This document shows, piece after piece, positions 3,883-26,306 of a DNA stretch of 64,000 nt. Source of the stretch: a bacterium (GTDB lineage Bacteria; Vulcanimicrobiota; Vulcanimicrobiia; Vulcanimicrobiales; SCRA01); NCBI GenBank assembly GCA_004298675.1, contig SCRI01000010.1:1-64000 (forward strand). The letters are read 5' to 3'. The position numbers and the translations under genes are program-made. The first letter of the stretch is position 1, and every line of letters begins with the position of its first letter. The notes below the pieces were generated by a model that worked only from the letters and a program-made list of their open reading frames with translations, had not been told where the DNA came from and made no database searches.

Positions 3883-4877
3883 TGCTGCTGCTGGGCATCG
3901 AAACCTCCTGCGACGACACCGCGGCGGCCGTCGTAGAGGACGGCCGGCGCGTACGCGCCAGCGTGGCCACCAGTCAAGATGCCTTTCACGCCAAGTACGG
4001 CGGCATCGTCCCCGAGATCGCCGGGCGCCAGCACGTCCAACTGATCTCGGCTACCGTCGAACACGCGCTCCAGACCGCCGCCACCACGCTGGCGGAGCTC
4101 GACGGCGTGGCCGTCACGCAGGGTCCCGGCCTGATCGGCAGTTTGGTCGTGGGCGTTGCCGCGGCCAAGGCTCTGGCGTACGCCACCGGCAAACCGCTCT
4201 ACGCGGTCAACCACCTCCACGGGCACCTCTACGCCGCCTTCCTGGAGCAGGAGACGCCGCCGCAACTCCCCCTGCTCGGGCTGATCGTCTCCGGCGGACA
4301 CACGCAGTTGGTGGACGTGCGCGCACATGGCGATCTACGCATTATCGGGCGCACGCTGGACGACGCCGCCGGTGAGGCCTTCGACAAGACCGCGCGCGTG
4401 CTGGGCTTGGGCTTCCCTGGCGGCCCCGCGCTGGACCGCCTGGCGCAGCAAGGCGACCCCACGGCCATCGACTTCCCGCGCAGCATGCTGGGCAGCCGCT
4501 CGTTGGACTTCTCCTTCTCGGGCCTGAAGACGTCGGCGCGTTACTTCCTGGAATCGAACGAGGGCAAGCGCGCACAGACCGCCGACGTGGCGGCCTCGTT
4601 CCAGGCGGCGGTGGTCGACGTGCTGGTTGCCAAGACGGCGCAGGCGCAGCGGCGTCTGCGGTACGCCACCGTCGTCGTCGCGGGCGGCGTCGCGGCCAAC
4701 TCGCGCCTGCGCGCGCAGATGGCGGCGTGGGCCGAGCGCGCCGGGGTCCGCCTGCTGATCCCGCCGCTGCGCTTCTGCACCGACAACGCGGCGATGGTGG
4801 CGGCGGCCGCCTACCACGAGGCCCAGCCCCCCAGCGATCCGCTGGCCCTGGGCGCCGACCCCAACCTTCCCTTTTAG
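3882..4877 (+). CDS. tsaD: tRNA N6-adenosine threonylcarbamoyltransferase
   Basis: TsaD (Kae1/YgjD) transfers the threonylcarbamoyl group from TC-AMP to A37 of ANN-decoding tRNAs, with TsaB and TsaE. The 331-residue length is typical. The start [13 protein letters not shown] is the conserved N-terminal ASKHA motif. HLHGH at 111-115 supplies two metal ligands, and the C-terminal CTDNAAM carries the third (Asp). GVAANSRLR and VSGGHTQL are further family motifs. Its ATG overlaps the thrS stop, so the two are translationally coupled: one gene consumes threonine for charging, the other uses threonine for tRNA modification. Confidence is very high from motif identity. Confidence 0.97.
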
Positions 4878-5046
4878 AGGTACGCCGTCACCGCCCCGCC
4901 CGTTGCGGAAGTCGCTTTCGCCAATCAAAATCTTCTGTCGACAACGCGCCGCAGCGCAGGCGTGTCCCCTCCGTTCTTCAAAAACGCTTTGCGCAAGTGA
5001 CAACGCCGCCGTCGCAGGCGGCACGATGACGATGAAGGGACAAGAG

Positions 5047-6663
<1,617 letters not shown>

Positions 6664-6689
6664 GGCACCCGCAGGCTTAGTCGCACACC

Positions 6690-6728
6690 GCACGAGCCGG
6701 ACCGTTCGCAAGACGGTCCGGCTCGTGC
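6690..6728 (+). terminator. Strong hairpin terminator after malate synthase
   Basis: A 16-bp perfect inverted repeat (arms GCACGAGCCGGACCGT and its complement) around loop TCGCAAG, 27 bases after the aceB stop. The T-tail is weak, as in many GC-rich genomes. Confidence 0.75.
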
Positions 6729-6750
6729 GTTCGGAGAACGCACCACGACG

Positions 6751-7536
6751 ATGCTCTTGACCTCTCACGTCCTCATCACCGACGCAATCCTGCTGTTGGT
6801 GGCCATCTTCGCCGGCGCGCTCAACTCGGTCGCCGGCGGAGGCTCGTTTCTCTCGTTCCCAGCGCTGCTCTTCGCCGGGCTGCCGCCGATCATGGCCAAC
6901 GCCACCAACAACGCGGCCATGTGGGTGGGCACGGCCTCCAGTGCCGGCGGCTATCGCGAAGAGGTCGCCAAAGCGCGGCGCTATCTGGTTGCCGTCGCCA
7001 TTGTGAGCGCCGTCGGCGGCATCGCCGGGGCCGTGATCCTGCTGCGCACGCCCTCGTCGGTCTTCACGAAGCTGATCCCGTTCCTGCTGCTGACCGCAAC
7101 GATTCTCTTCGTCGTCGGACCACTGCTGCCGCGCTACGCCGGCGGATCCACGGCATCCCACCACGGTGTGCAGCGCCCCTCTCTGCGCGCGATCATCGGG
7201 CAGTTGGCGGTGGGAATTTACGGCGGCTACTTCGGCGCCGGCATGGGCTTCGTGATGCTGGCGATGCTGGTGCTCGAAGGTTTCGAGAACATCCACGACA
7301 TGAACGGCATCAAGACGTTCCTCTCCGCCATCATCAACGGCGTGGCGCTGATCCCGTTCATCCTCGCGCGCGCGATCGCTTGGCCTGAGGCCGTGGTTAT
7401 GAGCCTGGGAGCGATGCTGGGCGGTTATCTCGGGGCCCGCGTCGCACGGCGTCTGCCGGCGCCGGCGGTACGCCGCAGCGTGATCGCCATCGCCTGCGTG
7501 CTCACCGCCTACTTCTTCTACAAGACCTATGCGTAG
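6751..7536 (+). CDS. TSUP-family (TauE/SafE) membrane permease
   Basis: 261 residues with about eight hydrophobic segments and the family's glycine-rich hallmarks: an N-terminal AGALNSVAGGGSFLSFPALLFAG block and a second-half YGGYFGAGMGFVMLAML repeat, as expected for a protein built from two homologous halves. TSUP proteins export or import sulfite, sulfoacetate or other small organic anions across the inner membrane. The substrate cannot be told from the sequence. It starts 20 bases after the aceB terminator, so it probably has its own promoter. The converging gene at 7543 ends seven bases after it. Confidence 0.85.
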   Translation: MLLTSHVLITDAILLLVAIFAGALNSVAGGGSFLSFPALLFAGLPPIMANATNNAAMWVGTASSAGGYREEVAKARRYLVAVAIVSAVGGIAGAVILLRTPSSVFTKLIPFLLLTATILFVVGPLLPRYAGGSTASHHGVQRPSLRAIIGQLAVGIYGGYFGAGMGFVMLAMLVLEGFENIHDMNGIKTFLSAIINGVALIPFILARAIAWPEAVVMSLGAMLGGYLGARVARRLPAPAVRRSVIAIACVLTAYFFYKTYA

Positions 7537-25417: not shown

Positions 25418-25535
25418 GGCATTAGCATGAGTGCCGCTGCAAGGGCCGGACTAGACGCGACCCGGCATGCAACCATGGTCGTAGCGGCGGTGGTCAGAAG
25501 AGGCGCAGCATACACGTGACGAGAGGGAGGACACG

Positions 25536-26306
25536 GTGGAACGCGATCGTTATCTCGAGCAGTGGGCGGCATGGCTCCCCGCGGCGTTGGTATGGCTGGC
25601 ACAGGATCCGCCAAACTACCGCGATTCCGAAGGAACCATACCGAAGCCGGCGCGCCCGGTACTCGGCATCCAACGCGTCGACGGCCCCTTGCGCGTGGCG
25701 CTGCTCTCATCTTCGGCGGCGTACGACACGGCGACGCAGCCGGCGTACAACGAGCACTGCGTGATCGGGGATTCGTCCTGGCGAGTCTTCCCATACGATC
25801 TGCCCGACGAGCGCATCGACTTCGCCCACGAGCACTTCGATCGCGCTCCGGCGCGCCGAGATCCGGAGCTCGTCCTGCCGCGCCGCGCCTTGCGCGCGAC
25901 CGGCGTCGAAACCACCGCGCACGCGATCTCGTGGAGCGGCTATTCGATGGACTGGCCCGGCCTGCTGCATCAGACGATTCCGCAGATGGTGGCGCAGGTC
26001 AAGGCGGACAACGCCAACGCGGCGCTCTTAGTCCCAGTCTGACCACTTTGCCACATGACGGCCGGTCTGGTCGTCGACGCCTTGGAAACCGCCGGTATCC
26101 CCACGGTCGTGGTCGGCAATCAGCGCGTACCGCTGAAGGGACTGCCGCGCGTGATCCTCACCCGCTACGAGCGCGGCAAGAACTTCGGCGAGCCCGGCGA
26201 TATCGGGGAACACGAGCACATCGCCGCGGCAGCCGTAGACCTGCTACGCAACGCCACGGAGCCGACGCTACTGGATCTGCGCGCGGAGGCTACGCCGGTA
26301 CGCTGA
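25536..26306 (+). CDS. GrdB-family selenoprotein-like protein with in-frame UGA (Sec169)
   Basis: One continuous frame of 256 residues from GTG 25536 (RBS GGGAGG five bases upstream), interrupted only by TGA at 26040-26042. The residues around it read LLVPV-U-PLCHMTAGLVV: the U-x-x-C redox motif of the glycine/sarcosine/betaine/D-proline reductase selenoprotein B family, where this position is Sec or Cys (for example LVPxCPxCHQTVG). Cys172 is the partner. The N-terminal half shows the family's FAHEHFDRAPARRDPELVLP stretch, and after the TGA AGIPTVVVGNQRVPLKGLP continues at normal coding quality. A SECIS-like hairpin lies 21 bases downstream. The reaction in this short, stand-alone form is unknown. 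If Sec is not made, the gene is broken. Confidence 0.7.
26057..26075 (+). promoter_or_regulatory. Candidate bacterial SECIS element
   Basis: The seven-pair stem GACGGCC / GGTCGTC (one G-U pair; an eighth U-G pair can extend it) closes the loop GGUCU, which starts with two Gs as in the E. coli fdhF SECIS loop. The loop begins 22 bases after the UGA, within the 16-37 range known for SelB recognition. Confidence 0.6.

Follow-up and report, generated by a model that had tools for sequence, protein, structure and literature searches.

A predicted PrdB-like selenoprotein of Candidatus Eremiobacterota, encoded with an in-frame UGA codon in a genome in which glycine and proline reductase partner proteins were not found

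The gene at positions 25536-26306 of the window (i.e., the whole stretch of 64,000 nucleotides analysed here, taken from a 3.03-Mb draft genome that is 98.5% complete) very probably encodes a PrdB-like protein whose in-frame UGA codon is decoded as selenocysteine (Sec). The gene itself, the conservation of its UGA codon, a complete Sec machinery in the same genome, and selection on both the downstream protein and the codons of a hairpin are established at the level of sequence. The coordinates of the gene and its elements are collected in Table 1.

Table 1. Features of the predicted selenoprotein gene in the window.
Feature	Positions	Strand	Remarks
PrdB-like selenoprotein gene (predicted)	25536..26306	+	GTG start; 256 aa plus stop; Sec169-x-x-Cys172; start, length and UGA position shared with homologues
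Likely ribosome-binding site GGGAGG	25525..25530	+	5 bases 5′ of GTG 25536; sequence and inference
In-frame UGA, codon 169, probably read as Sec	26040..26042	+	UGA in all full-length members of the window subfamily
TGC, Cys172 of U-x-x-C, putative resolving residue	26049..26051	+	Invariant in 15/15 aligned members
Coding sequence 3′ of the UGA	26043..26306	+	dN/dS values; truncated ORF from ATG 26055 if annotated conventionally
SECIS-like hairpin GACGGCC-GGUCU-GGUCGUC	26057..26075	+	Inside the coding sequence; fold, and peak of synonymous-codon conservation at codons 26058-26072

The segments 25536-26042 and 26055-26306, which conventional annotation would split into two genes and by which the protein could be missed, form one frame with a single internal UGA and the motif U-P-L-C-H; the initial annotation had correctly read them as sharing a frame, and it is the UGA that joins them. 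The GC content of the window is 67.5%, and the open extension of 87 codons past the UGA is equalled or exceeded in 7 of the 33 other TGA-ended coding-like ORFs of the window. That is to say, such an extension is not rare here, and the argument must therefore rest on conservation. The coding signal (GC3-GC2) is 0.34 after the UGA vs 0.31 before it. Two other long TGA extensions with a coding signal, those concerning ORFs 6661 and 44858, were rejected because they are separate downstream genes and not read-through: at 4762-7533 of the window, a TauE/SafE transporter gene lies in frame behind a malate synthase gene (ORF 6661), giving a false UGA read-through candidate, and the extension at ORF 44858 is a small protein gene 3′ of a chemotaxis receptor.

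Homologues were searched for in 61 genomes and then in all 149 genomes of the phylum, and matches were found in 24 of the 149, two of them being weak fragments (G043, G137). The hosts are Candidatus Eremiobacterota (Vulcanimicrobiota) and metagenome-assembled genomes (MAGs) of the same group, together with one relative of 34% identity in a Chloroflexi MAG. The identity to the window protein is about 85% in two congeneric genomes, 46-57% in several order-mates and 44% in a paralogue of the same genome; the paralogues of the window genome are three, namely the window gene (A), C46:129537 (B) and C18:47271 (C). In the window subfamily and the 44% paralogue group, all full-length members carry exactly one UGA, at the homologous codon, and the protein after it is conserved; the motif variants are U-P-L-C-H, U-P-M-C-H, U-P-V-C-H and U-N-M-C-H, and Cys takes this position in distant members only (G115, G116, Haematobacter and Roseomonas). 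Comparison with the two congeneric genes gives a dN/dS of 0.07-0.09 upstream of the UGA and of 0.11-0.15 downstream, at dS of 0.6-1.0, and to judge from these ratios the protein downstream of the UGA is under purifying selection. The earlier statements that the UGA sits at the Sec/Cys position of the family and that protein-like codons follow it are both borne out, the former by the alignment with homologues, the latter by the coding signal, these ratios and the conserved homologues; homologues that end or lose conservation after the UGA, which had been named as a possible refutation, were looked for, and the homologues continue and are conserved.

Decayed window-type copies occur in two genomes of a related genus, which shows that loss of the gene does happen: one (L094:1004-1495, G102:C228) lacks about 91 residues, the Sec codon among them, through an in-frame deletion, and shifts and deletions disrupt the other (L095:2824-3247, G103:C9). 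The Cys relatives of G115 and G116 (motif CPACH; L091:6800-7678 and L093:6193-7071) lie close to uptake-like (TctC-like or ABC) and dihydrodipicolinate-synthase-like genes, identities judged by eye from the first residues, and these neighbourhoods are perhaps catabolic clusters; G116 additionally carries a separate Sec form.

The hairpin downstream of the UGA has its stem at 26057-26063/26069-26075 and its loop GGUCU, presumably matching that of E. coli fdhF, at 26064-26068. The initial annotation recognised this hairpin and loop but placed the stem 22 bases downstream, which is where the loop starts; the stem starts 15 bases 3′ of the UGA. RNA folding, proposed at the same time as a check, does form the hairpin (-11.6 kcal/mol), although the energy is unremarkable (z -1.1, with 23 of 200 shuffles as stable); by itself, the folding energy is not significant in most members. 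A SECIS match was not found in the Rfam scan. Folding energy was accordingly dropped as too weak, and synonymous-codon conservation was used instead. Among eight members, 113 of the 125 same-residue pairs at codons +6 to +10 after the UGA share the codon (0.90, vs 0.46 gene-wide), and the only five-codon windows with codon sharing above 0.75 are those overlapping this stretch. None of 5000 synonymous shuffles reached this conservation, relatedness among the sequences being uncorrected, though dS is high. The frozen codons form the hairpin ACGGCC-(G/A)GU(C/U)U-GGUCG, in which Gly is always GGT (11% usage elsewhere in these genes), Ser is always AGT (7%), and Leu alternates between CTG and TTG with the variable base in the loop; GGT, AGT and TTG are uncommon elsewhere in the gene. 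The stem is nearly invariant within the window subfamily, the group C paralogues have a different one (GCAC-GGUC-GUGC) and their top synonymous conservation at +5 to +9 (0.89 vs 0.53), and other distant members have different stems around a GU-containing loop. The decisive evidence for the putative hairpin is this synonymous-codon conservation, and the codon pattern is as would be expected of a SelB-recognised element within a coding sequence.

As for the decoding apparatus, the genome holds all four of selA, selB, selC and selD, whose presence had been suggested as a check. The tRNA-Sec scores 71.7 bits (cut-off 47) and has the anticodon UCA, SelA scores 542.9 bits, SelB is above its cut-off, and selB adjoins selA, both lying about 10-13 kb from the tRNA-Sec gene. 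SelD scores 380 bits, and its gene (G000:C43:69356-70279, minus strand; L018/L087) has an in-frame UGA in the active site (SCAGU), so the selenophosphate synthetase is itself likely a selenoprotein. SelA was found in 121 of the 149 genomes of the phylum, and the Sec trait therefore looks nearly phylum-wide in Eremiobacterota/Vulcanimicrobiota; it was not found in any listed genome of genus g18, and every genome with full-length family members also has SelA.

That the UGA is a real stop, the two segments being a pseudogene or else a truncated gene next to a chance ORF, is very improbable: open extensions of 87 codons do arise by chance in so GC-rich a window, and the copies in G102 and G103 are decayed, but homologues whose dS from the window gene reaches about 0.9 still have the UGA at this codon, the downstream protein is under purifying selection, the hairpin codons are frozen and the Sec machinery is complete. 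A sequencing or assembly error for TGC or TGT (Cys) is scarcely credible; although the distant relatives named above do have Cys there, different genomes, assembled separately, share the TGA codon at this place, and Cys is absent from all full-length window-type members. The same negligible weight falls to a general recoding of UGA to another amino acid such as Trp, with which the open frame would agree, whereas UGA terminates many other genes of the window, in some cases shortly before a separate gene, the genome holds tRNA-Sec, SelA, SelB and SelD, and in the alignment the residue falls on the catalytic Sec/Cys of PrdB.

Decoding as Sec being thus by far the most probable reading, the protein can be placed among known families. 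Its best curated model is TIGR04483 (PrdB), at 48.9 bits (E 5.5e-13), the cut-off of 300 not being reached; any GrdB-type model gives at most 23.5 bits, the cut-offs of TIGR01917/01918 (GrdB) are missed (11.7 bits vs 602.2; 17 vs 65.45), and a Pfam scan found no real match. The homologous core with U/C-x-x-C in register points to membership of the PrdB/GrdB superfamily, and by these scores the protein appears nearer to PrdB (the D-proline reductase 26-kDa subunit) than to GrdB, far below either family's cut-off. The initial designation as a GrdB-family gene was right as to the superfamily, but the length and architecture are PrdB-like. In the tree, the window subfamily falls in a clade of 12 rows with strong support (100/99), separate from clostridial PrdB and from the Cys forms, and several long branches limit deeper inference. 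The structure model (pLDDT 92.2, pTM 0.91) sets Sec between strand 162-166 and helix 170-185, and the conserved residues outside U-x-x-C are G78, D79, R83, H100, D109 and E111. Among solved structures, the best match by sequence was no better than E 0.7, and a fold search of PDB and viral libraries gave none at E <= 0.001, with weak Rossmann/B12-domain-like matches only, so the structure gives no function.

GrdB and PrdB are textbook selenoenzymes of fermentation, and both need a pyruvoyl subunit. A search for PF09338 (GrdE, PrdA, PrdD) covered the window genome and the 149 genomes of the phylum and gave no match, whereas three clostridial/lactobacillar control records did match; GrdA was not found in four carrier genomes, and two control records matched. 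The window genome has seven homologues of haem-copper oxidase subunit I. Since these partners were not found and the oxidase homologues are present, the known fermentative reactions of PrdB/GrdB are unlikely here, and the evidence supports a role of the window protein outside glycine/proline fermentation, in agreement with the earlier suggestion of a selenoprotein outside anaerobic glycine reduction. Genes for respiration are not proof of aerobic life.

The window gene has no conserved neighbours across genera, its flanks being shared only within its own genus. A gene for FeS assembly (DUF59) lies directly upstream of the window-type gene in one genus only, and in G022 (L044) a homologue of YqjG-type glutathionyl-hydroquinone reductase ends 5 bp before it. 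The group C paralogue, which is 46% identical to Acetoanaerobium (clostridial) PrdB and about 31% identical to the window protein, is followed in 6/6 genomes examined, from two families, by a same-strand peroxiredoxin gene with a UGA-encoded peroxidatic residue (G000:C18:46540-47763, minus strand, L085; likewise L088, L099, L029, L033 and L097). The gap is about 49 bp in G000, and the motif is FTPVUTSQMP (FTAVU in G005, where a frameshift follows directly). The closest solved relative of this Sec-peroxiredoxin is M. tuberculosis Rv2238c, which we take to be AhpE, so that the peroxiredoxin would be AhpE-like. The pair is likely a two-selenoprotein operon, to judge from gene order, and the adjacency suggests a redox or peroxide role. 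The operon section of a 2026 review (PMC13188914) gives operons of Prx with SelW-like and of Prx-like with AhpD-like proteins, and the PrdB-like/Prx pair is absent from that section. As the window gene has no conserved neighbour, the evidence for a peroxide role comes from a paralogue that is about 31% identical to it.

In the mechanism proposed here, SelB carrying selenocysteinyl-tRNA(UCA) would bind the hairpin 15-33 bases 3′ of the UGA, and Sec would be inserted at the UGA to give a stand-alone 256-aa selenoprotein of the PrdB/GrdB superfamily. The Sec169-x-x-Cys172 pair would sit at a helix start in an alpha/beta (Rossmann-like) fold, where Sec169 may be the catalytic nucleophile and form a selenenylsulfide with Cys172. 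Two weak clues, i.e., the peroxiredoxin neighbour of group C and the YqjG-type neighbour in G022, speak for a selenol reductase that would handle oxidants or electrophiles. The function may tentatively be given, with somewhat less than even confidence, as that of a selenol/thiol reductase which works in respiring cells without a pyruvoyl subunit and whose substrate would be a small oxidant or electrophile, such as a peroxide or a quinone.

A less likely but possible role is that of a general thiol-redox electron carrier rather than a small-molecule enzyme: a U-x-x-C that begins a helix is reminiscent of thioredoxin-type redox motifs, and the Sec-peroxiredoxin adjoining group C needs a reductant, but the protein is large, and its many conserved residues outside the motif suggest a substrate pocket. 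A true subunit of a D-proline or amino-acid reductase, with an unrelated partner supplying the carbonyl group, is unlikely; the PrdB homology, the Sec in register and the closeness of group C to clostridial PrdB agree with it, whereas the failure to find PF09338 across the phylum (with matching controls) or GrdA, the lack of a conserved partner gene, and a score so far under the PrdB cut-off speak against it. Returning to the favoured reductase, it may be speculated, doubtful as it is, that the PrdB-derived selenoenzymes of Eremiobacterota, freed from the pyruvoyl subunit, serve oxidant/electrophile defence in respiring cells, one paralogue forming a two-selenoprotein unit with Sec-peroxiredoxin. 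If true, this would be a new activity for the PrdB/GrdB superfamily.

A selenoprotein paper on Eremiobacterota was not found in the open-access literature searched, most subscription journals being outside that coverage. The novelty lies in a subfamily that reaches none of the curated cut-offs, occurs in Eremiobacterota and has a genomic setting in which the partners were not found. Three paralogous selenoproteins of the superfamily are encoded alongside haem-copper oxidases in a genome where the partner proteins were not found, and this offers a testable case for the role of the many PrdB-type selenoproteins of oxic environments.

Compared with known systems, the window protein shares with PrdB (TIGR04483) a length of about 240-256 aa, the U-x-x-C Sec/Cys in register and an alignable core; on the other side, it is 24-29% identical to annotated PrdBs, has UPLC vs UGTC and extra N-terminal helices, and a PrdA partner was not found in its genome. 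With GrdB and GrdF/GrdH (PF07355, TIGR01917/01918) it has the C-terminal core with U-x-x-C in common, but those models span about 430 positions vs its 256 aa, and GrdE/GrdA were not found in its genome. The alphaproteobacterial "glycine/sarcosine/betaine reductase selenoprotein B family protein" of Haematobacter and Roseomonas belongs to the same superfamily, likewise with no reductase operon around, but has Cys in place of Sec and forms a separate long-branch clade. It has been reported since 2005 that PrdB-type UxxC selenoproteins occur in oxic sea water and are among the commonest there (42 genes, PMC1088965; 235 genes, PMC2398784), and by the descriptions given these "PrdB" selenoproteins are alike in being of U-x-x-C PrdB type outside fermenting clostridia. 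The window protein is a lineage-specific variant of such PrdB-type UxxC selenoproteins and not a new kind.
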